From: Sanghuangporus weigelae
Taxonomy: Eukaryota; Basidiomycota; Agaricomycetes; Hymenochaetales; Hymenochaetaceae
Direction: 5' to 3'
DNA length: 64,000 nt
Assembly: GCA_033182465.1 (NCBI GenBank)
Contig: CP137324.1
Span: 930,001-994,000, forward strand
The first letter of the stretch is position 1; each line of letters starts with the position of its first letter. Below the pieces are notes generated by a model. That model saw only the letters and a program-made list of their open reading frames with translations. It had not been told where the DNA came from and did no database searches. Below are positions 1-22,158 of this stretch, piece after piece. The translations under genes and the position numbers were made by a program.

Positions 1-351
1 AGGAGCCCCGGCTGAACCTGGAATTTCGGGTTTTTATTTCTACGTTCAAATGAATTTACTTAACCTTACCCTGTCTTGAACGACGGAAAGTTTCGCCTAG
101 TGGAGCTCCGTCGACGCCTGCGGGTCATTTCAAGGACTCTGAATAGATGGCAATCAATGTGGACTTACCATCTCTCACTTTGAACGTCTCTCCGAGCGGT
201 GCTCCGTCAACCACTGTCGATAGATTTAGTCCTCGCAGGGAGATGTAACACCGTTGAGGCACTTACCACTATGTCCCGGCTTCTCAATAGGCTTAGGAAC
301 AGCAAGGATGGACGAGAAGCAAGCGAAGAACACGAGATGAAGGACAAGCAT
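1..351 (-). CDS. Secreted mini-exon repeat protein (partial, runs off left edge)
   Basis: Not a family I recognise. On the minus strand an ATG at 351 opens a 28-residue first exon (267-351) with a hydrophobic signal peptide (about residues 1-17, likely cut after ILA). Two very short exons follow, 169-213 (45 nt) and 70-117 (48 nt), and the first 17 nt of a further exon (1-17). The introns (214-266, 168-118, 69-18) are 51-53 nt with GTAAGT/GTAAGG donors and CAG acceptors, all in phase 1, so exons can be added or lost without a frame shift. Each short exon encodes one repeat with the shared core DGAPLGETF followed by a basic tail (KVRD, then RRSRQ). The next begins GSAGAP, so the series continues outside the window. 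The pattern suggests a secreted repeat precursor, possibly proteolytically processed, but no canonical KR site is visible and that function is inference. Confidence 0.72.
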
Positions 352-1950
352 ATTGATGGAATGGTGTGGGGAGATTTAGGAGACTACTCTCAAGCAACGT
401 CTTCTATTTATCCTCTGAGGACTTATTGGTGATTCTTCGACTTCTTTTCCACGGTGCTTCATGGTCCTTTACATCCGGCCTTCATGCGAACTCTCATGAC
501 ACCGCCTCAGCATTCAGATTTAGCTTACACGCAGAAGGAGTGCATGATGTCGTGGGACGTACGATGGGTATTACCAAATGCATTGAACAATTCGAAGCTC
601 ACCAGCGGAAGTAAAGACGCGGACCCAGGAGAAGAAGCATGGCGGACTTCACAACAATTAAAACTCTCCGAGCCAGTCACGTAACAACAGCTTCCTGTTC
701 CGCCGTGCCGACGAAGACAATCTCCGATGTATGCTAGATGCTCGCTGTATAGCTTACCGGTCAGGGTGACAGCCGCTGAGTGTACCTCGCTATCGTCGGA
801 ACTCGGTTGTTTACTTGTGCAGTGCATGAGAACGGCTGTACATCCATGTCTTTCTGACTTGGGCATCCGATGTCTACGCATTTCCCATCCTAGTCGGACT
901 GATTATACTTACTCTTGAAGAATACTTCTCTGGAACTGCGATCCCTTAGTGTCCTCGTGGATCTTCGGTTCTTTTCCAGCCGTGTACTTTATCGGGGTTA
1001 CTGAGGAGTTTGCCGGCCTGTGAGTACGCAATAATAGCCTTCTTTCTCTCCGCGTTGAGAGTCGTCACTAGATGAGCGAGCTCTGATATTGAGCTCTACT
1101 TAATGCTTTTTCAGTATCAGTCGAGAGCACGCTAGTCCTCGGAGCTTTTCGCTGTTAATGCGCGCAAGATATAGAGTTATGCACACAAAACACCGAGTAG
1201 AGGTATATCACCCTGGCTGCTAGAAGCGCTCCGCATGAATAAAAGTTCCCCTTCTACAAAGGGGTAGTTTCCCATATAGCATTAGTGCTCTTCGCCCGGA
1301 TAATGGGGTACTCATCATTTCAAGCAAACCATCCAATTCAAATCGTTGATGCGTAATGAAGTGGGTACATACAACTTTGAATTCTATTCTTAGCTCTAGC
1401 TCCCATACGAAGTTGACGTAGCATCAACAGAATGACTTATTGTGCCCGACCAGAAGAGTGGGAGACAGCGATGGCTGTGGGCTCTGAAATTTCCTCGGGC
1501 CAGTTGCGATCTTCATGGATGGATATCTGTCCTCAGCAAGCTAGGATACGGCCCGAAGAAGCTCGCGGCGCGGATAGTCATGTTCCCATGGTCGGTCACG
1601 GTAAGTCTAGTTCCAGTGATCTGCCATTATAGCTCCGATTCAATTAAGATTTTTGGCGGCCAATAGTAGATTCGTGATGGAAAGTTAAAAACCATCACTA
1701 AGCCATCTCTTTATTCATTTACTTCGATCGAATGTCTAGACTTACGATCCATCTGACGGACTCGGTCGGACCATCGTATCGTCAAGACATGACTGGACTG
1801 CGGTACGGATCCAGATGACGATGATAACAGTTTTACGTCTTTACTCATCTTTATAAATCGTTAACGCAGATACAGAGTCACCACTATCTCTTTCAACTCT
1901 TTCACCCTCGCAAACAGGTGGCTGCTTGCATCAAAAGCTGTTGAAAAGCA
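352..1950. other. Intergenic region, no supported gene
   Basis: About 1.6 kb separates the secreted repeat protein (leftward) from the MFS transporter (rightward). Only short open frames without conserved content or convincing splice partners are present. It presumably holds both promoters. I see no tRNA, no clear repeat and no transposase. Confidence 0.5.
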
Positions 1951-4938: not shown

Positions 4939-6635
<1,697 letters not shown>

Positions 6636-6931
6636 GATTGATTATAATATGTATCCCGTAACGATTCGGTTGTTTATGGGTGAATATGGGTGAAGGGGCG
6701 CAAAGTGAGCGCAAGTTTGAAGAGTCGGAGTGAAGGTCAGGAGCTGACGCAAGCGCAAATCGCGACGCGTAACCTCAGAAATTGAAACACGTGACCTGGC
6801 GTGTTTTCCACTGGCACGCGAAGGATATAGGACATTATTTTGTGTAGGCTTTCGGCGGAAGACAGATTGTATCAACGACTTTAATACAGTTCCGGGGTAC
6901 ATAGTACACAGGAGAAAAGAAACATATGAAA

Positions 6932-8275
6932 CTAGTTCTTTGAGGACATTTTCCTCATGAACGACCTCATCCTTTCCTGGGCCCTCCTTCTTCTCTCAAT
7001 ATCATTCACAACGCTCGCATTGGACTTCTGCAAGCTCAGACTATCACGAGGTGCAACAGTATACGTCCTGAGGTCGGCGTTCGGAATCTGGACAGCATTC
7101 CTTTTGACACGGCGTGCGTCTTCCTCGCGCATCTTGGCGAGGATGGTGTTTAGACGAGCAGGCTGTGAAGCGTTTCGCGGGCCTGCATCTTCGGCGGAAG
7201 GTGCCACAGGAATGAGGCGGTCACGGTATGAGGAGCTGCGCTTAATGATTGGTCGGGACCATGCGGCGACCAGGTCGTTCGCCATCCTTGCGATGGGTGT
7301 CGTCACCCGCTTGCATTTCGTATAGAACAGCACGATTCGGCCCAATCCAGACTCCTTAAGCGAGTTAGTGTCGATGTACATCTTCGTGAGTTGCTCGAAT
7401 AAGAACATCTGAATGTTGAGCGCCGGGAGAGAGCGGTCCGGAAGTGGCTCGAGCCAACGACGAACGCCTTCAAGCAAGTTATTGTCCATAATTGACTGCG
7501 CAAGGGAAGACCTGTCCAAATAAAACTCGCATTAGCATGGAAGGGGTTAGCGAAATCGCAAAGGCTTACTTTTGCAAGACCTCCTTGACGCGAGGAAGGA
7601 GCTTTAGCTTCGAAATGGCAGGTTGCTTTTCTCGGTTCGCATCATCGTCCTCTGCCGCAGCTTTGAGCATCTCTTCCCGAAGCTGTGAGACTTCCTCATC
7701 TGCAAAACGTTCGATTATTTCTTCATCCTGGTCCTTCCTACGCTTTTTCGGCCGATTCGTCTTTTTGGTCTTGACGATGGCATCTATTTTTCTCTCCAGT
7801 GCCCTCTTCTTTTCTATCAAAGAGAGTGTTAGTCTCGGACAACGACTAAGTGCGAGGAATGCTGGGAAGCTCACTCTGCTCTTCAGTAAGATCTTCTTCA
7901 GGCTCTGGCACGACAACACGTTGCCTCCTCTTCCTTTTCTTCACCACTACTGGCCGACCCTCCTCATCCGCATGTCTCCTCACTTTCTTTTTCTTCGGTG
8001 CCTTTTCCTGCACGTAATCATCAGCAGAGTCGCTAGCCGACCCATACTCGGATCGAGGAGGTGGAGGCGAAGCACGATGCCTCTCAAGGCGCTCCTCATG
8101 AAGATCTGTTGCTCATTTCAGTTGTGTCGCTCTTGTTAGAGCCAAAGGACACTTACCCTCCTCTGCGGATGATAGCTCCGAGTCGGAGCCACCGAAGATA
8201 TCTCTTTCAAGAAGCTATGCAGAAACATCAAACACTATTCTATAGCACTTATAGCTAAATACTTACATTCGACAT
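6932..8275 (-). CDS. IWS1: Transcription elongation factor Iws1/Spn1
   Basis: A nuclear factor that binds Spt6 and RNA polymerase II during elongation and mRNA export. The ATG is at 8273-8275; the first exon encodes only MSN before a GTAAGT intron, then LLERDIFGGSDSELSSAEE and DLHEERLERHRASPPPP. The N-terminal third is acidic and basic low complexity (KAPKKKKVRRHADEEG, KKRKRRQRVVVPEPEED), usual for this family. The conserved TFIIS-N-like (LW) domain follows: FADEEVSQLREEMLKAAAEDD, SSLAQSIMDNNLLEGVRRWL, EPLPDRSLPALNIQ, FYTKCKRVTTPIARMANDLV, AAWSRPIIKRSSSYRD. It ends RSFMRKMSSKN. There are about 370 residues in five or so exons. It lies tandem to and upstream of Rpt2 on the same strand, 296 bp apart. 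Confidence 0.93.
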
Positions 8276-9402
8276 CGTTGCTGCTGTTGAGGACGGTAGA
8301 CGCGCTGACTGATATGAGCTTACATGAGCACGTAAATTACATAAGCGTTGATCAAAGCAGCACACACACAATTGCGTTGACACCGCACTGCTTCTACTGC
8401 TTATTGAAATTCAGGCTAATTCAGCTTTCAATTATTCCGTTGTGCGGTTGCGTCCAATGAATGTCCGTTTTTGAAAGAGTGGCACGCTCATGTTCGCGTT
8501 CGGCTGGTCGGCAATAGAGTGGGCGCCGCAAAGCACGTTTTTGACGACAAATGATCTGAAACGATCGATTCCCACCTAACCATCAGAGACCGTGCATGTT
8601 CAGTGCTCACTTTTACTGAGTAGGATCTATGCTCTTTGAATATCTCTGGTAGAAGCTGAAATTAGCCAGGGCTATCGATGCGTTTCCGATCTTCGCTGTC
8701 GATTTGACGGCACGGGTGCCTTGAAGGGCACCGGGTCAAGGAGCGGCGCTCGATGACATTCCGCGAAGAGTTTAGGTCGCACGTTCATGCCGCATTGCAT
8801 CAATCCATGTCGCCGCAGAGATGAATAATCACTTGTAATTGTTATGGAGCTGGAATCGCTGTTGTAGAGAGAGAAAGGTGACTGAGAATCCACAGCAACG
8901 AAATATGTGAAATTGTTGAAATTGTGAGGGAGATTAGCTACAATCGGCGTTGCGGCCTGGGCAGGGACCGGCGCGAGTGTGAATACGTAAGAGTGGATAT
9001 AACCTAATCGAGAATTGGGATGATGCAATGACTTGCGGGGCTTCGCGATCGGAGGGGTTGAGCTTCTTTGATTCGATAACTGTAACCTAATTTCTCCGCA
9101 AATTCATCTGTCCTCGTCGTGCACTCGTATTTTCAGTCGAGGATAAGTGGTAACGCTGGTCGACCTTTGCTGTAGGAGTGTAGAGTACCGCGAAAATAAT
9201 GTTTGTTTTTTTTGGCGAGTACGATGATTGAGGCGTGTTCCGTCATCATCGCTTCCCTCATTTAGCCGAATTTTGCCGAACTCTGCTTGCCAAGCGCCAT
9301 TCGTAAATAGTTCCTTTTTCGTTCCAGTTTCCTCTCTGCTTTCATCCCGTCCTCTTCCTCTCCCTCGGCCTCCGCCATAACCGCCTTCCTTCGTTCTCGC
9401 CC
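8276..9402. other. Divergent intergenic region (Iws1 / F-box-like)
   Basis: About 1.1 kb lies between the Iws1 start and the next rightward gene. A 118-codon open frame on the minus strand (8672-9028) has no ATG at its start, no recognisable domain and no clear splice partners, so I do not call it a gene. The stretch just before 9403 is pyrimidine-rich, consistent with a fungal core promoter. Confidence 0.45.
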
Positions 9403-11429
9403 ATGTCCGTCGCCGTCCAGGCGATGGTCGGCGCAGCCCCGGTCCCCACGATTTCCAATCGCGGCTCCCCTTCGGCCGTCGAACGGAGTCAGCTTGGTGA
9501 CATCTCTTCAAAGCCGTCCTTTTCTCGCCGACCCTTACCTCCAGTTCCCGGCGTTACTCGCAACTCGAGCGTCATGTCCTCGTCGCCACTGTCGCGCCCA
9601 GTCCGTGCGAGCTTCATCTCGAGCGCTCGCTCCACGGGTTTAGCCACAATATGCTCAAACATGCGTATTCTGTCGTGTTTATTGAGGTTTCTGACTTGGT
9701 CGGACTTTCACTCACTCAGTGGCACATCTCGTGGCATTCGCCGTTTGTTCCTTGATGCAAACGTCAAAGAGACGGTTTTTGTGCTATTCATCCCTGGTTA
9801 CCGCATAGCCTTGAAGGAGAGAGACAGAAGGCTGTGGGAGGACAACATTAGAATGACCTACGCGGACCTCGGGCTTCTCAGTGAGTGCCGCTCACGGTCT
9901 TCTCGTCAGAAGTGAAGTCTGAAAGCTTGTTCCCTAGTTGCCGCGCTGGATTTGCCCTTGCATCGGTATCCTATGCACGCACTATCGGTGCTGTCTAGTG
10001 ATCTGCCTACTTGGGAGCAGATACACACCACTAAACTTTTCCGGTCGTATTCTCAAGGTCATTCTCGTGCTGTTTTGCTATTACAAAACTTAGTATACAG
10101 CAGTACTCGCCCGGTTCCTTCTGACCTTGATGCTCCCTTGTTAAGACCGAGCGGGTCCCCATCACAAACAGGACTACGCGAATTGACCTTCCCTGCTCCT
10201 CTCGCATACGCCGATCTGGACATGACAAATGGCAGCAGTAGTTCCGGTAAGAGCAGACCGCCTTCAGACAGCGGAGATACTGCGGCCCGTTCCTCTTCCT
10301 CCGGCTCGAAGGTGGTCGTTCCAAAGTCTCGTAAACGGCATAGCAAAAAATGGGGTCCAGAAAATGGAAGCCTCGAATCAGACTTACGGAAATCCAAACG
10401 TGACCGCAGCACCTCTCGGATTTCCATCTTTGGAGGACAACGTCCACCACCACCGTTGCCACAGCCTTCAATCGAGCCCGAGGCGCTGCGGTACTATTCT
10501 GGGAGCTGGCGACGCTCGTACTACGTCCCGCCACCAAGCGATGATGGTGTATTGAAGCCACCTAAGCGCAGATTTGTAACATCACGCTATTCGAGCAACT
10601 CATCGCTTGGAAGTTCGCCATCTCCGAGTTCCAGTAGACTCGCTACAACTCCAAACAACGCCTCGTCGCCACATGACCTTTATTCTGCTACGACCAGAAG
10701 TCGGGCGCCGATTTTACGTGTATTTGTTCCCTGTGCCGAGTTGACCGATGAAGTCATAACGGCATGCGAAGACCAACTCATTGATGACGGCCTCTGGGAA
10801 CACATGTCCGTTGGCGACGTTGTATGCAACTTTGGTTACGTCCCACTTGCCGAGGAATCGGAAGAAAATGGGCAAGAAAAAGATCATAGGCGATGGCTCG
10901 TTTTTACCGGCGAGCAGCTGGAAATATACCATCCGACGCAGCCCCCTCCTATTACGGGCGCACTCAGTCTTCCTTCTCCTTTCTACTACACGCATATACT
11001 GCCTCCTTTCGCGAATCCACGATTACGCCTTATTCTCCCACCATTTCGTGCTCATTACTCACTTGGACCGTTGACTACGAGGGTCGCTTCGCCCCAGACT
11101 CCTGGAGGATATGCACGTGTGAAGACTTTTGCATGGCTTGCGAGCTTCGACGTGTACCCTTCCCCTGGCTCGCTAGTAAGCTCAGGATGGGCTGGTGAAT
11201 GGGTTCTCCAGGGCGAAGGCACACCGGAAGGCAAGATTGCTTTGCAAGACGCACTCCGCGGCGGTCAGGAGACCGAGCACGAGTACGAGATCATGCTTGA
11301 GAACTGCGGCGCAGGGAAACTTTGGCTTAGGTCGGTCCCGAAGCTGATATTCTTTTACTCTTGGCGTGTTGCCTTGCTAACAATAGCTATTTTCTTCCCA
11401 GGATGATTGCTTCTGCCCCCCGAGTGTGA
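9403..11429 (+). CDS. F-box-like protein with long disordered middle (basidiomycete conserved type)
   Basis: A protein of about 636 residues in three exons. The first (from ATG 9403) has a Ser/Pro-rich start, then RILSCLLRFLTWSDFHSLSG and TSRGIRRLF, which resembles an F-box (leucine-rich helix, D-x-x-S/L, TSR). Splicing at 9880 (GTGAGT to TAG) joins GLL to IAALDLPLHRYPMHAL. The middle is Ser/Pro-rich and disordered (SSGKSRPPSDSGDTAARSSS, PKSRKRHSKKWG, SSSPSPSSSRLATTP). The C-terminal part has an ordered-looking domain: RAPILRVFVPCAELTDEVI, CEDQLIDDGLWEHMSVGDVV, CNFGYVPL, RRWLVFTGEQLEIYHP. A final intron (about 11330-11400) joins LWLR to MIASAPRV and the stop. If it is a real F-box protein it would recruit substrates to an SCF ubiquitin ligase; this is inference. 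Confidence 0.78.
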
Positions 11430-12142
11430 GATGATCGGATTATTCTAACCTTCGGACTTTCTCAGTGGACTGAACATTTCTTATTTTGTTCATCCCTCTT
11501 CTGACCATACTGAATACTTTCATCAAAGTTTTGTTCACATTTCACAGGTTAATTCCTTGTCTATCCTCTAACACATCTCCATCCACATTCGCATATTGTC
11601 TTGCACTTATGCTATTTCTCACCTCATCCACCTTTCAGGCGTCTGTCAGCATAACTCACTTTCATCTGACTGTATCTCGCATCTATTCATTTTCCCCCTT
11701 CATCGTTCCTCAGCGCATTAGCTCGTGTCTGCTCTGCAATCATTCATTCGTTCAGAAACAACACATCAACGCATACAAAAACACTATTTTCTGTCTCCCC
11801 CATTCAAGGCCTTTTCACCTTCATTTGTGCTGTGGACATTTTTCCTCCTAACCTAGGCTGAGGACATTCTTACATATTACTTCTACAGTATACATTTGTT
11901 TAGTAGTTGTACAGAGCCGTTTTTGATTGTTGTACGCAACTCTGTACGGGTACTTTATTGGTAAAGTACTTAAAAATCAAAACGAATTGGCCGATGAGCC
12001 TGATACCGTATTTGGTAATTGCCGATCATTCAATGATGATCGGCTGGAAAGATTTTCAATTTCCGTGCGCAAGTCTGTATTCAAGTTTCCTTGAATCCTT
12101 CTGAACTCTTTCAGACCGTCTCGTCCGCAGTTCTCTTCATCG
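11430..12142. other. 3' flank and promoter, no gene seen
   Basis: About 0.7 kb of pyrimidine-rich DNA follows the F-box-like gene and leads into the next gene on the same strand. No conserved frame, repeat or RNA gene is visible. Confidence 0.5.
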
Positions 12143-13728
12143 ATGCCAGCACTCGTCAAGACTCTATCCAAGAAGAAGGAGAGCTCAAAGGGCAGCGTCT
12201 CGGGTCTTGGGAAGACTTCGGCGTCGGTGACGCCCGCGAAACGGAAAAAACATGCGTTGGATTCTAACGATGAGGACGACGCAGGGGCAGAAGAGGAGAT
12301 GCAGAAGAAGGTCAAAACTTTCAGGGGGAAGGAAAAGGAGAAGTCTCTGGGAAAGTCTCAGGAAAAGGTAAAGGCTGCGGACATCGGGGTGAAGCCTAAG
12401 CCAAAAGAAAAGGCGCTTGTGACGGCTAGGAAGGCAGAAGCGAAGGAAAAGGACAAAGGGAGGAAGTCAGATGGAAAGGAGAAAGAAGCGAAGAAGAAGG
12501 CGACGGGCAAGAAAGGCGTAACAATGGGAACGTTGAAGAAAAGCCCTGCAACCGAGAGCAAGACGAAGCGCACGAAAGCACCGACTCCTTCGCCGGAATC
12601 TTCAGATGCAGAAGCTGACTCGGGCGAAAGCGATGAAGAGGAGGATGAAGACGAAAGCGCGGTTGAAAGCGGGGTCGAATCCTCAGATGACGACAAGAGC
12701 GAGGGGAAGCAAAAAGAAGCTGGCGCTAGCTCAGACAAGGATGAAGAAGTGTCTGGGGAGGAGGAGGAAGATGCCAATCAAGATGAACAAATGCACTTGC
12801 GCGGATTCTCATCCAACGAATCCGACTCCTCAGACGAAGAGGATGAAGATGATGCCCTCAACAAGGCTCAGCCGATTGATGTTGGGAAGTTACCCACTGT
12901 AGCGAAAGACGATGCGACGGTGAAGAGAAAACTTGACAAAGCGAAGAGGCAGGCGGTAAGTTGATGCGTTTCTCGCTCGCCTTCGTATTTTAGGTTTCTG
13001 TTCCTTTCATCCATTGCTGATCTGATCTTCTTTTTCTTCTGATTTTTTATAGTCAGAGGAAAGAGGGGTCATATACCTCGGCCGTATACCGCACGGCTTC
13101 TACGAAGACCAAATGAGGGCGTACTTCTCTCAATTCGGGGATGTCACTCGATTACGACTTTCGCGGAATAAAAAGGTCCGCTGCTTTCTCCCCCTCATAA
13201 CAGTCCTTTCAAACTCAACCTCTCATATATGTATATGGAACGAACACGTTAGACCGGCCGATCAAAGCACTACGCCTTCATCGAGTTCAAATCCGCCGCA
13301 GTCGCTCAAATCGTCGCAGAAACGATGGACAACTATCTCTTGATGGGACATCTTCTTCAATGCAAGCTCGTGCCCAAGGAAGAGGTGCACCCCGAACTAT
13401 GGGTTGGGTCGAATCGAAGGTTCAGAAAGGTGCCGATGGCGAGACTTGAGAGACTCCAGCAGAATAAAGTTAGTGTTCTGTTCTTTCCTTCCACTTGCAC
13501 GCAAATTATATATTGAATATGATGTTTGATAGACAAGGACCGATGAGCAGCAGAAGAAAATCGAGAGACGCCTATTGAAGCGTCAGGAACAGAAGAAGAG
13601 GAAATTAGAGGCACTCGGTATTGATTATGACATGGCGCCATTTTCTTATGTGAGTGAATAGTTTCACAGTGGTCTAAGGCGAGGTCCTGATGCACTGATA
13701 GTCAAAAAAGAACAAGAAGGATGTCTAG
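12143..13728 (+). CDS. Nop15/NIFK-like nucleolar RRM protein, 60S biogenesis
   Basis: Nop15 (human NIFK) binds pre-rRNA ITS2 during large-subunit maturation in the nucleolus. Five exons. The first (12143 to about 12955) encodes a 270-residue lysine/glutamate-rich, strongly charged extension ([33 protein letters not shown], then acidic [20 protein letters not shown]). The RRM follows: [20 protein letters not shown] (RNP2), [18 protein letters not shown], intron, [18 protein letters not shown] (RNP1), then [20 protein letters not shown], a typical Nop15 signature. The tail has a basic helix ([32 protein letters not shown]) and a tiny last exon SKKNKKDV. At about 434 residues it is roughly twice the yeast protein; the extra length is all in the charged N-terminus. 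Confidence 0.9.
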
Positions 13729-14650
13729 TCACTTCTTCGCCGTCATTGGCGCATATGCATTCACTTTCACTACTTGTCAGATCTGGTAATATCATGTGCG
13801 AATGAAGACACCAACTCCAAATTTACTAAAGAGCAGTGCAACGCATTTGCATATACTGTGCTTTTTCTATTTCTATGACAGACCAAGTTATTGAGACATC
13901 AGAACTGAGATCATACAAAATAACATTTTCCTCTCGTTCAGGAACTGTAGTCAACGCAGGCGTTGAACAGCATTAATATTGTTCCTAAGCCATCAAGTCG
14001 AGAAGAATGCATTTGCCGTGCGCAAGTTGTCTTCCTTTTAATTGGGACAGATCCCGATGTAATTCCTCCTTTGAAAGCTTAGGTGCTTAAGCGGTAAAAT
14101 GAGCATGAGTTGCTGACTCGTAACCAGCGCTTATGAGGAACGCGATCGGAAGAGTTATACGACGTTGGTTCGTTGATGAGAATAGGAAAAAGGGGAACGA
14201 GCTTAGGTGAAAAGACGATGATAAGTTCGTTTCAGGAATCAGGATCCGTTCGTTCAAAGGGGTGTTACAGATAATGGCCGCAAGCCACATATACATTCCA
14301 AAGCACAGGCCTCAAAGCAAAGAACCTCCGCGTGTTTCGTCCTAACGATCCACCAACTGAATGTTCCAACCCGTTCAGCGACCCTGGACGATGCGTCTGC
14401 GATGCAGGAAAGATCGTAACTTCGTGTGCAAGTGTGGTGGTGCATGTACAATCTTTGTCCGACGTAGTGTTACATGAATGCAGATGCCTGACTGAACACA
14501 GCATGCCGTGAAGTAATGGTATGAGACTGGCGTAGGCGATGCAGACCTGCGACGATTAGGTGGCACATGACGATAAGGGATAAGAGACGACATACTTCAA
14601 GTTCGTGACCAGCTTCCGTCCATTCCGGATAGCCGTCAAAGCTCTGGCTT

Positions 14651-15530
14651 CAAGCACACTTCGATTGCCAATACCGGTGCTGTCAGCCTTTCCGAACCTG
14701 CCACTCACTGTTCGGATGATCACCTGCAGCCGGTACCCGTCGGTAACCCTCATGGCTATAGCAGACGTCGGTCCGATCAGAGTGGCAGGTGTTTCGTTTC
14801 CTCCGGTGGCCCGTAGGCCTGGTCGCCGAGCGAACACTGTTGGCATTCTGGAACACTCAGCGACCTTTCCGCCTCTACTCGTATAGGATCGATGGCATTG
14901 ATAGTCCGACCTGTGAGCCCGTCGGCTACTCAGTCTCTCTGGACCGAGCGGTACAGACATGCCGATCTACCCGACGAGGAGGGCGAGCCGTGCACTGTCC
15001 CGATACACCGACCACGACGTGCGACTTACATTTGTGTGCAAAGCACAGCTCATGCGCAGTCGGAGGGTGGTGGTACGGCGGCATAACCGGCCACACGCTG
15101 TGCCGTGTTTTTTTACATGGTATAGCGTCTGTCGATGACTACATCGAGTGTCTTTCATTGAACGATTTGTCGGATGGGCGACTATATGCGAGCATCAGGA
15201 GTGGATGGAGTGGCATTATCACTACTCGAACGGGGATGGAACACGAGGTACTCGATGAAGGAAGAATGTGACAGACGTACCTGGGAGGTCAGTGTCGCCA
15301 CTGCCGAAGGTAGACGGCAACCACGATGGGAGGCTCCGATAGAGGAGTACATGGGTGGATGTACGACGGGTATCGCGAGCATATCAGGGCGAGGCCCCGA
15401 GAGTATTACAGAGAGGTTTGACGATGAAGTGAGGAGGCCACCAAATAGGATAAGGGGTGATGGTGGAAGGTGGAAGAGATGCATGTCTCGAAGAGCAAGA
15501 GGGGGCGGCCTTTTATAATCCGGAAAGTGG
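14651..15530 (-). repeat. Dispersed intergenic repeat, copy A
   Basis: This stretch aligns over most of its length to 44751-45310 in the same orientation, with many substitutions and small gaps but several nearly identical blocks. The best block is 14715-14750 against 44801-44836 (36 positions, one mismatch). Other shared blocks surround the words CAGTCGGAGGGTGG and GCCGTGCACTGT and the TGTCGCCACTG region. Reading the minus strand, a TATA-like TATAAAAGG lies at about 15509-15517, upstream of the shared blocks, and the other copy has TATAAATG in the equivalent place. Frames are not conserved between copies, which argues for a non-coding or decayed element. Orientation is assigned from the TATA position only. 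Confidence 0.55.
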
Positions 15531-15740
15531 CAGACAGTGGCAGTGTGGCAAATAAGGTTATGTGGCTAGCAGCTTAGACTGGACTGCAAACCCGTAATAG
15601 GGAAATTGACTCGAACCATTCAGGCCTCGACAGACAAAGAACGTTCCAGACAGACGTGCGCTGAAGCATCGTGGCAAGCATACTAACCTCTGAACTGTGA
15701 GACAGTTCACAGATCGAATTTCGGTTGTTGGCGTGGCATA

Positions 15741-15830
15741 AGTCGCAGCGCAGTCAAGTCGCGTTGTTGTGGTTTGTTGATGTGTTTTATTACAGCACGT
15801 TGTGATTACATATCATCCGAATCCGGTAAC
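15741..15830. repeat. Short dispersed repeat, copy A
   Basis: The segment around the word GTTGTGGTTTGTTGA (preceded by AGTCAAGTCGC and followed by GTTTTAT..C.GCACGT) recurs at about 55171-55240 with roughly four of five positions identical. Function is unknown; it may be a remnant of a mobile element. Confidence 0.5.
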
Positions 15831-16632
15831 AAGCTAGGCTTCGCCTCGAGCTCGAGCCTCAAGGTGTGAACCACTTCTTCCGCTTTTCCTTATGTTTATC
15901 ACAGACCTCCCAGTAGTATATAATTAGTCGGATTATTATTGCTTATGCAGTACTAGCTCTAGGCTAAACGTTCTGACTGCAAGACTCCTTCTTGTCTTTA
16001 ATATATCGCTGATGATTTTTATTTTTCGCGACGACGGACAATAACTTCGGGCTATGCACCGTGATAAGAGTGGCAGGTGTATATATGTATAACCGCCTGG
16101 TCCGAACGATAGCGTCAATACCTTTTGCCATGAATACTGAAAGGATCGGTTCGAAGATCGTAGAATGACGGCTGCACCAAAGGCTCTGGAACAAAGCATT
16201 CCATATCATGGCATGGAAAATGTATCGCTGGACCAGACCCTCGATTCAATGCGAGCGGGGTTGGAAGACGCAGTCCTGTACTCTACGTGCTGAAAAGACA
16301 TTTCCATACAATTTGATAGAATTTATTTCTTTGTAAGCCTGATGATCGAGGTCTCCATGGGTGAACGGTAAAACTGCTCTGGTTGCTGAAGAGAAAAGAT
16401 GGTAAGGTATGAACGTGCGGCTGACGTGAGTCGAATAACAGCACGAAAATTGCATCACACATCAAAACATTGACATTGAGAGAGGAAGTGTCCATGTGGG
16501 TGAGTCTTTGGCGGAAAAAAGGTAGCTCAGGGAGGAAAGGTATGACGTAAAAGTGGGAAGTAGCTGCGTTGCGTACATCGTACAAGTGAACAAGGCAACG
16601 AGATCGTTGTTGTCCGAATATATTACTGATTA

Positions 16633-17920
16633 CTACTGATTAAAGATTAAAGATAATTAGCATCAAAGATGGGTTTATGGACGGAGCAACTCACCAGGAA
16701 GTAGTCCGGCACACGACGAGATACTAAAGGCTCACCAGCTCGTGGTGCCGGATCGAATTGTAGGCTAAGCGTACTTGTTAGTCCATGAGGAATTCGATTC
16801 GACTGAAATGATAGGACTCACAAGGTGTAAGCTAATTTTTCGTCGATTTCCATGATTGCTGCCTGATTGCCACATCTATAGCAGTAATTCGGCGCACTAA
16901 AGATAGTTACTACGTTTCGATCCTGACTCCAGTTATAACCTAAATTATACGTTAATATTGAAACCATGGAATTAGAAACAACCCGATACGCACCTTCCAT
17001 AACCAACTGATGCGCACGAGCGACGAGTGTGAGCCCGTTGCTATGGTTGAAGGCTTCTGAGATATCCTGTCCGAAAGTGTACCCTGCACCGCGAGGTGAA
17101 ATACCCCAGCCACAACGGTCATCCGGATCGGACCACAACAGATCACACATAGGCCCTTCGTGCGGTACCTCCTGCACACGGTCAATGGATCGGACTTGAT
17201 CAAGGGTATCTATAGAGGGTGAGAGGCCGCCATGAAGGCAGAAGATCTGGAGAAGCAATGATGCAATGATCAACCATATGTAGCATGTCTTCCATAGATG
17301 ATGTGTCGACATACTTGATTTTCGATGAGAGCGGTTAAGGGAAGGAAGTCGAAGAGATCTGTGAAGTAGCGCCAGACGTTGGCGTTCCCGTACTTTCGAA
17401 GGCACTCGTCGTAGAAGCCGTACACCTGCGTTATCTGGCGCGATTCGTGATTGCCGCGAAGGATGGTGACGCGATCGCGGTACCGGAGTTTGAGGGCGAC
17501 CAACAGCGTTACGGTCTCCACGGAGTAGTATCCACGATCGACGTAATCACCCATGAAGAGATAATTTGTGTCTGGAGAGTTGCCACCGATCCGAAAAAGC
17601 TCGGTGAGATCGTGCTAGTCGAAATGGATGCTTAAAATTGGAATATTTAAGAACTGAGGGTCGAGGGTACATACGAATTGGCCGTGGATGTCCCCGCATA
17701 CTGTTACGGGGCACCTTACGGGTTGAACATTGGACTCCTCCATCAAAATTTCTCGAGTCTAGTAGCATTACATGAGAACGCATACATCTCAGCGACGTTG
17801 TCGGGAACAAGGGCACGCGAGAGGAAAGCTGACCTTTTCGCAGAGACGTTTTACGTTATCTTCGGACAGTTGTTTGCAGTCTGCGAGCTGCTCGATCCAT
17901 TTGTCTAATTCTTGTTCCAT
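16633..17920 (-). CDS. Serine/threonine protein phosphatase PP2A catalytic subunit
   Basis: The catalytic C subunit of PP2A. From ATG 17918-17920 it begins [20 protein letters not shown], matching fungal PP2A-C starts. The metal-binding and catalytic motifs are present in order: [92 protein letters not shown] and [16 protein letters not shown]. The C-terminus is RRVPDYFL, the conserved tail that is carboxymethylated and phosphorylated. An intron of 59 nt sits directly before the stop codon: after CTG a GTGAGT donor opens, and the CAG acceptor is followed at once by TAG (16633-16635). Without this intron the reading frame would run on past DYFL. About 310 residues. It is divergent from CCT5 with only 164 bp between the start codons. 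Confidence 0.95.
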
Positions 17921-18084
17921 TTCTTGATCTGGTATGAAATCGTGTAAGTGGTGCGAGTCTAAGTCTGTGCTGCGTGCCTCTCGGGCCAAAGTGCTGAATG
18001 TGTCGTATGTGTGTGACAGGCTGTGACTGAAAGTCTCTGTCCGCGCACTACTAACTAGAGCAACTTTTAGTCTTGCCTGCAACC
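17921..18084. promoter_or_regulatory. Shared divergent promoter, PP2A-C / CCT5
   Basis: Only 164 bp separate the start codon of the leftward phosphatase from that of the rightward chaperonin gene, so the two must share promoter DNA. No TATA box stands out. Co-expression is inference from spacing. Confidence 0.55.
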
Positions 18085-20329
18085 ATGGACCAGCAAGCCG
18101 TCTATGCAACCGACGAGGTGCGCATATACCTGCGAAATATAGAGTTCAGAAGCAAACTTATGTTTATATGCAGTACGGGCGACCCTTCATCATTGTTAGG
18201 GACCAGCAGAAGAAAACACGGAGTCATGGGGTCGAGGCAATAAAAGTAAGCGCAGTCTGATCGTACTTTATGAGAACAGCGCTCATTTGGCAAACCCAGT
18301 CGCATATCCTTGCAGCGCGGACAGTAGCGAACATCGTCAAGACGTCGCTAGGACCCAGAGGTAGCTTGTTTTTGAATTGACATGACTTGTGCACTGACGC
18401 AAGTCGTGCAGGCCTAGACAAGATCCTGATCTCTCCAGACGGCGATATCACGGTCACGAACGATGGTGCTACGATCCTTGGAAAGATGGAAGTCGAGCAT
18501 CAAATCGCAAAGCTTCTTGTCCAGCTCTCAAAGAGTCAAGATGATGAGATCGGTGACGGTACAACCGGTGTTGTCGGTTAGTGGTAATTATCCATTCCCG
18601 TTACGTCCTGATTTCCTGGAATTACGATTTAGTCCTTGCTGGTGCACTGCTTGAACAGAGCGAGGCATTGCTTGATCGAGGAATCCACCCGACTCGAATA
18701 GCCGATGGTTTCGAGCGAGCTTGCGTTTTGGCCGTCAAGCATTTAGATAGCATTTCCGACACTGTCGAGTTCTCGAAAACGAATACGTTGAACCTGTTCA
18801 AAACAGCGAAGACGGCTCTAGGGAGTAAAATGTATAGTCCGGTCTTACTTGCAAAAGAATACTACTAATGTTTGGATGAACAGTGTGTCTAAGGAGCATG
18901 ACCGATTTGCGCAAATCGCTATTGATGCTGTGCTTTCTGTTGCCGACCTACAACGGAAAGACGTACTTTTCGATCTCATCAAGGTCGATGGCAAAGTTGG
19001 TGGCTCTCTTGCCGATACTGCACTCATCAAGGGCGTGTTAGTCGACAAAGACATGTCACATCCTGGAATGCCGAGTACGGTTAGGGACGCGCGTATTGCG
19101 ATCCTCACATGTCCGTTTGAGCCGCCGCGCCCGAAGACAAAACACAAGCTCGACATCACAAGTGTGGAAGAGTTCAAGAAGCTACGAGAGTACGAAAAAG
19201 AGAAATTTACGGATATGATTAAACGCGTGAAGGACACTGGCGCAAACCTCGTCATCTGCCAATGGGGCTTTGACGATGAAGCAAATCACTTGCTTATGCA
19301 GAACGATCTACCCGCGGTGAGATGGGTCGGTGGACCCGAGATTGAGGTAGTTTTATTACATCTGATTGTTTCACAACTTAGCTAATCGTACTCTACGCTA
19401 GCTCATCGCGATCGCAACAAATGGGCGAATTGTCCCGCGATTCGAAGATCTGTCCCCAGAAAAGCTCGGTAAAGCTGGCGTTGTACGGGAAGTCACTTTT
19501 GGTACTACGAAAGACAAGATGCTTGTTATTGAAGAATGCGCAAACACGCGAGCCGTCACCGTTTTCGTTCGCGGGTCCAACAAAATGGTAATTTTCATAT
19601 TCTTTACTGAAGTTAGTAGAGCAAAGGCTAATGAAATAATTACAACTAAACAGATTATTGACGAAGCGAAGCGTGCATTACATGATGCTATCTGCGTAGT
19701 GCGAAACCTAGTCGTCGATAATCGCGTCGTGTATGGTGGCGGGGCGGCTGATATCAGTTGTTCGACAGTGGTTGCAAAGGCTGCGGATGAGGTTTGTGGA
19801 AACTATTTTTCTCTTAAGTATCGTCCTTGACTTTTTTTTGGCCAATCAGATCCCGAGCATCGAGCAATACGCGATGCGTGCCTTCGCATCTGCTTTGGAT
19901 TCTGTGCCACTCGCACTCGCAGAGAATTCTGGATTGTCGCCGATTGAAACGCTTGCGGAGGTACGCAGCCGGCAAATCGCCGAAGGGAATCCGCGTCTTG
20001 GTATCGATTGCATGGGCGCTGGTGACAACGGTAAGTAGCTTTGTTCCTCGAATGCTTGCCTTTTGGTTCACCATCTATTTCCAGACATGAAGCGTCAGTT
20101 TGTGTATGATCCACTTATTTCAAAACGGCAACAGTACTTGCTAGCGACTCAGGTACGTTCTCTGACTCTTTGGCATTGTCTTATTATAATGGATTTCATT
20201 TATTTCCAGCTTGCAAGAGCCGTTCTAAAAATAGGTCAGTGGCTATATCAGATTGTCAGCAAGAAGCAGTCTTCTAACGTTTTATTCTTTGCAGACGACG
20301 TGATTGTTACCGGTCAGGATTCTGAGTAG
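18085..20329 (+). CDS. CCT5: T-complex protein 1 subunit epsilon (CCT5)
   Basis: One of eight subunits of the cytosolic chaperonin TRiC/CCT, which folds actin, tubulin and WD-repeat proteins. About eleven exons. It starts [11 protein letters not shown], then [20 protein letters not shown]. Family motifs include [40 protein letters not shown], the ATPase motif [126 protein letters not shown] and [12 protein letters not shown]. The residues GDGTTG and GGGAA around the nucleotide are intact. It ends [13 protein letters not shown] with TAG at 20327-20329. About 555 residues, standard length. Confidence 0.96.
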
Positions 20330-20551
20330 ATTAGCAACTTGTGCAGATAATGTAGAAACAAACTTTTATTTTACATTAGCTTGATCGCGTCTGAGATGCC
20401 AAGTTGATGTTCGATCTCTATTTGGTTTCGAGGCAAAAGGGTATTGTCCCAGTCTAACAAGAACAAGTAACTACAGTGCGATATATACAAAACACAGAGA
20501 GCTATTGAAACGATGCAAACAGAGTACTCATAATTAATACAAAATCCTTGG

Positions 20552-22158
20552 CTATCGATCCAAAATTTGAACAATAGATTCGAGAACGACCCGAGGTTTG
20601 AGGACAACTCTTCTCTCAACCGTCTGCGGAGAGAAGTCCTTGCCATCCTTACCTTTATTCGTCAAGCACTGTAACCCGACTTCCGTCGTGCACAGAACAC
20701 GACCTCTGCTCGGCCCATAACCCTCATACACATTCTCCATAGCAACAGGATTGAATTCTCGTACGCTCTCGACGAAGAGAGGCTGGAAGTCGGTGCTCAT
20801 GGTCCCCTCGCGGATGATGAATGCGAACCGATTTGCGAGCTCTGCGATGCGCCGGAGCTGCGAGCGGTACTTCTGCGTGGCGCGTGTGAGGAGCTCTTCG
20901 ACCTCGCCTGCACCGCCGGCGGAGAGGACGTTGGCGACGCCCCGGAGGCAGGTGTCGGTCACTTCGTTCGTCGCGAGCTGGTCGATGTTGGGCGATAGAG
21001 CGCGGATGTGCGAGTGTGTAAGCGCCCGCCAGCGGCTTGAGGTTGGCTGGGGTTCTGAGAAGAGAAGAGAATATAGATAAGATATAGGTCAAGTGAGGAT
21101 GCGGGAAGCGTACCGGATGCGTGCATGTGGGAGTAGATCTTGGATAGGTGCGATTCGAGTTTGCCAGTTGATCCGAAACAGAAAGACGACATTGCATGCG
21201 CGATACATTGACAAACGCAAGCTATATAATATACGAAACATTACTCAGTCAATCTTCGGTCTTATTGAACATATGGACGCTCACCTTGTAAGGCATACTG
21301 CAGTATCGTCGGATCCTGAGAATGGTCTCTTTTCTCAAGGACCTGTCGCATCTTTGAGCCAAAGCGCGCAGCGACACGCTCGAGCGCCTTGCGTCGGCCC
21401 GCACTGGGTCCAGGCGCGGGCGACGGCGACGGTGTGTTCCTGCGAGATCCGACTGCCGCTGAACCAGGACCGTTCGCCACGGGAGGGTGCATCGCTTCGC
21501 TGGCCGCGGCAGCAAATTGGAGTATTTCAGAGTTGATGTCCTTGACGGCCTGCACGAGATCGCTGCCCGCCCACCGATCCGTCTTGGTGAGGAATCGCTC
21601 CATCGAGCGTACTTCCAGTCTGCGCTCCTCAGCGACCCGTCGGAGTTCGGTATTCTCAGCATCGAGCGTGCGATTCCTCTCCCTGAGCTGGTCGAGCAGT
21701 ATGTCCTTTGTGCGGACCTGGGTCGAGGCCTCCCTGAAGGCTGATTGGAGCGCATAGTGCTTTTCGCGGAGAGATTTTAGCTCTGCCCGGAGGCGGGCGA
21801 TCTCCTTTGCTTGGGGTGATTGATCCAGAGCGGGGTTTGGGGCGGCCAGGTCGTCGTGACGAATAGTACTAGCGCTACCAGTGTAATAGTTGTCTGCGTA
21901 CACGATGCCCGCCTCGTGTGCAGCAGTCTCGGTCTCCCGGCCGTCCTCGTCGCTTACGTCGTCGTCGTATTCACCGTAGAATTCGTCGTAAGCTGCGTTG
22001 TGAGAAATGGATGAACCGCCAGGGTTTGATGAAGAGATGCCAGAATTGGGAACCCAGGTGTTTGCTGAGCGCAGAGACGAGGACGATGACGGGTGACGAT
22101 GAGCGTAGTTCGCAAGCGACGAGCCGAGAGAGCCGCCCGCGTTCTTGAGGGCGTACAT
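20552..22158 (-). CDS. Uncharacterised coiled-coil protein
   Basis: I do not recognise a named family. Exon 1 (ATG 22156-22158) encodes a Ser-rich start, an acidic stretch (YDEFYGEYDDDVSDEDG), a coiled coil of about 90 residues (SPQAKEIARLRAELKSLREK, QLRERNRTLDAENTELRRVA, MERFLTKTD) and a Pro/Ser linker, ending RKALERVAARFGSKMRQVLE and QDPTILQYALQ. Although an open frame continues to a stop at 21262, a GTGAGC donor there joins in frame through a TATATAG acceptor (about 21222) to ACVCQCIAHAMSSFCFGS, and a second intron joins to EPQPTSSRWRALTHSHIRAL. The C-terminal part has VTDTCLRGVANVLSAGG and FQPLFVESVREFNPVAMENV. About 497 residues in total. A gene starting at the internal ATG (21192) is possible but less likely. 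It is divergent from the Hsp70-like gene, 206 bp apart. Confidence 0.7.

Follow-up and report, generated by a model that had tools for sequence, protein, structure and literature searches.

A repeat gene with mini-exons in Sanghuangporus weigelae as a candidate precursor of short secreted peptides

The left edge of a 64,000-nucleotide stretch of the Sanghuangporus weigelae genome (the window, C7:930001-994000, where C7 is contig CP137324.1 of a 33.87-Mb, 13-contig genome) cuts through a minus-strand gene in which very short exons each encode one copy of a small repeat with a basic tail. Such an arrangement raises the question of what the product is made for. Is it a precursor that is cut into peptides, is it a protein that stays whole, or do the small exons serve to change the number of repeats by splicing?

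Layout of the gene and its surroundings

The left flank of the window was read from C7:925001-932000. Taken together with it, the gene runs from window position 351 to 1 and then over 400 further bases left of the window edge, and it consists of five exons and four introns (Table 1). All four introns are in phase 1 and lie at one identical point of the repeat unit; the first three have GT...AG borders. The product of 180 residues is made of a hydrophobic N-terminus, a short spacer and nine units of 15-19 residues, which are of the type x[DA]GAPLGETFRxRD.

The initial annotation of the window had proposed a signal-peptide exon followed by 45- and 48-nt exons and the beginning of another, with phase-1 introns of 51-53 nt in between. 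This layout stands, with exon 1 carrying the start codon and a hydrophobic stretch that we regard as a putative signal. The further statement that there is one repeat per exon is correct for the three units of exons 2-4 and wrong for the other six (units 4-9), which are found together in the last exon. That exon, with its six units and the stop codon, came to light behind a fourth intron through the leftward extension that had been advised as a check.

Table 1. Coordinates of the repeat gene and of a putative upstream element
Feature	Window position	Contig position	Strand	Length	Remarks
Putative TATA-like element	404..411		-		ATAAATAG; 53-60 nt upstream of the start codon
Exon 1	267..351	C7:930351-930267	-	85 nt	start codon, hydrophobic N-terminus MLVLHLVFFACFSSILA, short spacer; ends in phase 1
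Intron 1	214..266		-	53 nt	GTAAGT...CAG, phase 1
Exon 2	169..213	C7:930213-930169	-	45 nt	unit 1, VDGAPLGETFKVRDG
Intron 2	118..168		-	51 nt	GTAAGT...CAG, phase 1
Exon 3	70..117	C7:930117-930070	-	48 nt	unit 2, VDGAPLGETFRRSRQG
Intron 3	18..69		-	52 nt	GTAAGG...CAG, phase 1
Exon 4	1..17, with 28 nt beyond the edge	C7:930017-929973	-	45 nt	unit 3, SAGAPLAETFRGRDG
Intron 4	left of window		-	52 nt	GTGTGT donor, phase 1
Exon 5	left of window	C7:929920-929601	-	320 nt	units 4-9 and stop

The C-terminus of the protein is uncertain, because the last unit (C7:929601-929614, minus strand) ends in a donor-like sequence, G/GTAAGATC or G/GTAAGATCTTGTAG, which resembles the sequence after unit 1. The terminal KIL and the stop codon may come from reading into an intron that is old or still in use. 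A TAG acceptor lies about 61 nt downstream of the donor-like site (counted by eye), and its use would exchange no more than a few terminal residues and add no unit.

On its left the gene is met by a convergent gene for a lysine methyltransferase (Methyltransf_16; 3306-4274 of C7:925001-932000, plus strand), which lies tail to tail with it at 326 bases by ORF end and is probably a housekeeping gene. Next comes a gene for a peroxisomal adenine nucleotide carrier, whose product, spliced by eye, has 93% identity with a protein of Sanghuangporus sanghuang and 83% with one of Fomitiporia mediterranea.

The repeat unit, its relatives and its possible processing

When the 180-residue protein was compared with 7997 scored candidates of 99-315 residues from a protein database with entries of Sanghuangporus sanghuang and Fomitiporia, none matched, even with E values up to 10 admitted. 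With the last exon as a query, three proteins were found among 3756 candidates: P0121 (98 aa, E 2.1e-11), P0122 (72 aa, E 2.0e-7) and P0123 (69 aa, E 6.2e-4). All three are entries without a name or a Pfam domain, from the sources 'lgn' and 'ena'. The repeat protein itself has one insignificant match in Pfam (Tal_Pri, E 5.2, below the cut-off), and the last exon has no match in PDB by sequence. Rfam gives nothing at its gathering threshold on C7:925001-932000, and viral contigs contain no match to the motif. The strings GAPLGETF, PLGETFR, DGAPLGE and DGPPLGE occur in no paper searched, a search that covered the texts; lists of KEX2-processed repeat proteins (KEPs) are kept in supplementary tables, so the protein may have been listed before. 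In Pfam, PDB and the literature searched there is no known family to which the repeat protein could be assigned. Prokaryote genomes yielded a single spirochaete stretch, with one DGPPFGETFR and no repeat in the 150 residues read; it is taken as a chance match.

Eighteen complete units can be compared, nine from the gene itself and nine from the three relatives; P0123 begins with a further, truncated unit, which is not included. Every one of the eighteen has G, P, L, E and F, and 17 have T. The first basic residue of the tail is R in 17 units and K in one, the second is R in 17 of the 18, and D follows the second R in 15. The residue between the two is hypervariable, with 11 kinds across the 18 units; in three units the first arginine is directly followed by K or R. 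Within the gene a basic tail closes every unit, R-x-R-[DE] is found at seven places in the nine units, and six of the nine continue as R-Q-G. Residues 1-17 of the protein have a mean Kyte-Doolittle hydropathy of 2.34 and, judging from this hydropathy, the protein is apparently secreted. The 162 residues after an assumed cut at residue 18 contain one dibasic pair (RR) and no Cys, Tyr or Trp. The net charge of the protein is +6. A unit conserved nearly to the letter in such a protein suits a multi-copy precursor of one short peptide as well as a multivalent repeat.

What, then, happens to these units? The reading that we prefer, and which we hold with as much doubt as conviction, is that of a single-copy gene for a secreted precursor, in which nine copies of [DA]GAPLGETFRxRD are cut after arginine to give short peptides. 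Once the protein had entered the secretory pathway, its R-x-R-D(R) tails would be cleaved behind arginine, either by kexin or by a protease specific for monobasic sites, for instance a yapsin. As many as about nine short, similar peptides, e.g. (pyro)QGSAGAPLGETFRPRD(R), could be freed in this way, and at the R/Q junctions the new N-terminal glutamine could turn into pyroglutamate. A kexin P-domain is encoded at at least two loci of the genome. In a study of Coprinopsis KEPs expressed in Pichia, products were seemingly cut after a single arginine and some had pyroglutamate N-termini (PMC9769878). A Kex2 study mentions evidence for cleavage with other P2 residues, and yapsins appear as monobasic-specific in the title of one of its references (PMC2515848). 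We favour the precursor because every unit has the basic tail, most units run on to R-Q-G, and the Coprinopsis precursors seem to be cut after single arginines.

The main rival to the precursor is a secreted protein that is not cleaved. It would be unfolded and multivalent, belong to the cell wall or the extracellular matrix, and have a binding motif in each unit. We regard this as a tentative alternative that is rather less probable than not. The near absence of dibasic sites argues for it and against the precursor, and the freedom of the residue that separates the two arginines suggests that selection is not keeping the classical KR preference. The two conserved arginines would fit binding by an uncut repeat equally well as cutting. 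The absence of Cys, Tyr and Trp after residue 18 and of any Pfam family also points in this direction. On the other hand, the length of the unit varies between 15 and 19 aa, so a regular solenoid is disfavoured.

Mini-exons, introns and splicing

The three relatives also bear on the introns. P0121 and P0123 contain a stretch between units (SGFI...FFVA and CGFI...FFSVA, respectively), and P0122 has a leader that ends in ...ILSVA. Going by protein letters alone, these stretches could be phase-1 introns that were included in the translation. A donor N/GTGGGT is compatible with the letters in two of two cases and an acceptor GTAG/ directly in front of [VT]DG in three of three, and the inferred intron place matches that of the window gene. 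In P0121 one unit precedes the stretch and three follow it; in P0123 it is preceded by the truncated unit and followed by two complete ones. P0121 and P0123 would then show the same pattern as the window gene, with a single unit on the 5' side and several units on the 3' side. After their last unit P0121 (RDGELI) and P0122 (RDGTLI) have tails similar to that of the window gene (RDGKIL), and P0123 differs (RDVINNLL). The alike tails represent either a short conserved C-terminus or a common donor site.

Within the last exon of the window gene none of the five unit junctions contains an intron, and two of the five have the letters CAAG/GTA at the position of the unit that an intron occupies in the upstream junctions. 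The single-unit exons would most likely have originated by duplication of an exon together with its flanking intron, and the multi-unit exon at the 3' end by intron loss or by duplication inside the exon. We also considered that introns might be former repeat units, given their similar sizes (51-53 nt for introns, 45-57 nt for units), and rejected it for want of evidence. Alignments between introns give z of at most 1.5 and those between introns and units at most 2.1; between units z is 2.1 to 11.8, with a mean of 5.5. An old homology of introns would be invisible anyway, because silent sites are saturated. The size of the introns is not unusual either, since five other introns in the neighbouring carrier gene, spliced by eye, are 53-71 nt long.

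Could splicing itself be the purpose of such exons? Schistosome micro-exon genes (PMC4350168) likewise have a secreted product and very small symmetric exons; the organisms are unrelated, and in the fungal gene a mini-exon equals one repeat. A fungal analogue, in which symmetric single-unit exons are skipped or kept and splicing sets the number of copies, seems improbable to us. It is true that exons 2, 3 and 4 (45, 48 and 45 nt, phase 1-1) are symmetric multiples of three, so any of them could be skipped in frame. A looser junction-level count in Schizophyllum commune also gives 1,527 exon-skipping events inside coding regions (PMC5034255). However, six of the nine units (two thirds) are in one exon. 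Mini-exons 2-4 account for 138 of 543 coding nt, whereas in micro-exon genes most of the coding region is in very small symmetric exons. In S. commune, skipped exons account for 1% of the assembled events of alternative splicing within coding regions, and retained introns for 43% by the abstract or 44% by the body of the paper (PMC5034255). Retention of any of the four introns of the repeat gene leads to an early stop, hence it would provide no clean variation in copy number. By this fungal precedent, variable splicing as the main use of the mini-exons is possible but unlikely, and splicing of the gene is probably constitutive. Among the titles and abstracts listed in literature searches there was no fungal gene with one repeat per exon or with micro-exons.

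Constraint on the unit and comparison with known peptide precursors

A degenerate pattern for an 8-residue core, with all codons allowed, has nine matches in the 33.87 Mb of the genome, all nine of them in the repeat gene, and its reversed control has none. By this pattern there is no paralogue in the whole genome. Another pattern, which describes DGxPLGExxF-type cores and tolerates one mismatch, matches at six places genome-wide, again all in the gene, and a protein search of the genome returned two stretches, both within it. When copies are compared pairwise over a ten-codon core, 28, 42 and 244 differences are found at codon positions 1, 2 and 3, each of 360. This corresponds to pN 0.082 and pS 0.830, a ratio of 0.099 which applies to the core and not to the tail, the core having been picked for its conservation. 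Silent sites are thus saturated and the protein is nearly unchanged, which means that the unit is old and under selection. The gene is under selection at the protein level, and the repeat with a basic tail described initially is confirmed, with almost no dibasic (KR-type) sites.

It is very improbable that there is no gene here, and that we deal with a diverged tandem repeat of DNA or with a gene on the opposite strand. A 126-aa ORF does run antisense through six repeats (RKVSPNGAPALPCLSLG...; 4557-4937 of C7:925001-932000, plus strand), and its frame is constrained as well, with a ratio of 0.19; the other four frames have ratios of 1.4 to 4.1 (copies with stops dropped). However, the lowest ratio, 0.10, belongs to the GAPLGETF frame. 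The antisense ORF is open, with a weaker but visible constraint, because its wobble positions fall on wobble bases of the real frame. It is likely a shadow of the latter and no gene. Proteins with a GAPLGETF-type unit also occur elsewhere, which argues further against a mere DNA repeat.

In dikaritins the Tyr of the core is used for cyclisation. The least probable of all readings, a dikaritin-type RiPP precursor with modified, cyclised cores, can draw on the layout of a secreted repeat precursor (ustiloxin type) with an N-terminal hydrophobic stretch and on 13 UstYa-domain (PF11807) matches in the genome, but it is contradicted on the tested features: there is one dibasic pair in all and not one between each repeat, no Tyr, Trp or Cys occurs after residue 18, and the nearest UstYa match on the contig, at C7:588 kb, is about 341 kb distant from the gene at C7:930 kb. 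The search for neighbouring modifying enzymes, which the initial annotation had advised as a check, thus gave no UstYa match near the gene on this contig. Among ten flank ORFs (two in C7:925001-932000 and eight in window 5925-22158), four were matched by Pfam at E 0.01 and three were above the family cut-off (Methyltransf_16, Metallophos and Cpn60_TCP1). Apart from Methyltransf_16 none of the ten suggests a peptide-modifying enzyme, within a scope limited by introns and unscanned ORFs. The UstYa matches are on C2, C7 (540-588 kb) and C8, and include three divergent pairs within 1-4 kb, two on C7 and one on C8. These pairs suggest dikaritin-like or related clusters elsewhere in the genome.

The gene resembles KEPs (PMC6339444, PMC7329392, PMC9769878) in its hydrophobic N-terminus, in its tandem near-identical units of 15-19 residues with basic residues between them, in its likely secretion and in its agaricomycete host. 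KEPs have three or more near-identical internal repeats, and nine are present here. Unlike in KEPs, the units are not separated by KR, RR or KK, and for this reason we do not file the gene as a KEP. A further difference is that three of its units are in single-unit exons. In the main texts of PMC6339444 and PMC7329392 the terms 'intron', 'exon' and 'splic' are absent; in that of PMC9769878 'exon' is absent and 'intron' appears once, for an intron-less cDNA. Going by its description, Rep1 of Ustilago maydis is likewise a basidiomycete secreted precursor giving several similar peptides, which are of 37 residues as compared with the unit of 15-19 residues here (PMC6339444).

Two large screens for fungal repeat peptides worked on annotated proteins and demanded dibasic KEX2 sites from one repeat to the next (PMC6339444, PMC7329392), and a third one also used a plain repeat finder (PMC9769878). 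Since dibasic sites are nearly absent, the family with the GAPLGETF unit would fail the dibasic filter, and the tiny exons make the gene easy to miss in annotation. One may go further and speculate about a new class of fungal secreted precursors, with R-x-R-D instead of dibasic sites and missed by dibasic KEP screens, in which splicing and duplication set the copy number of peptides and the hypervariable residue is a specificity position; in our opinion this full version is a long shot. If the units of the preferred precursor are released, they would represent an overlooked class of mushroom peptides. Apart from this, the gene offers a compact example of probable exon duplication with introns at some of the unit borders only, which is useful for studying intron gain and loss in repeat genes.
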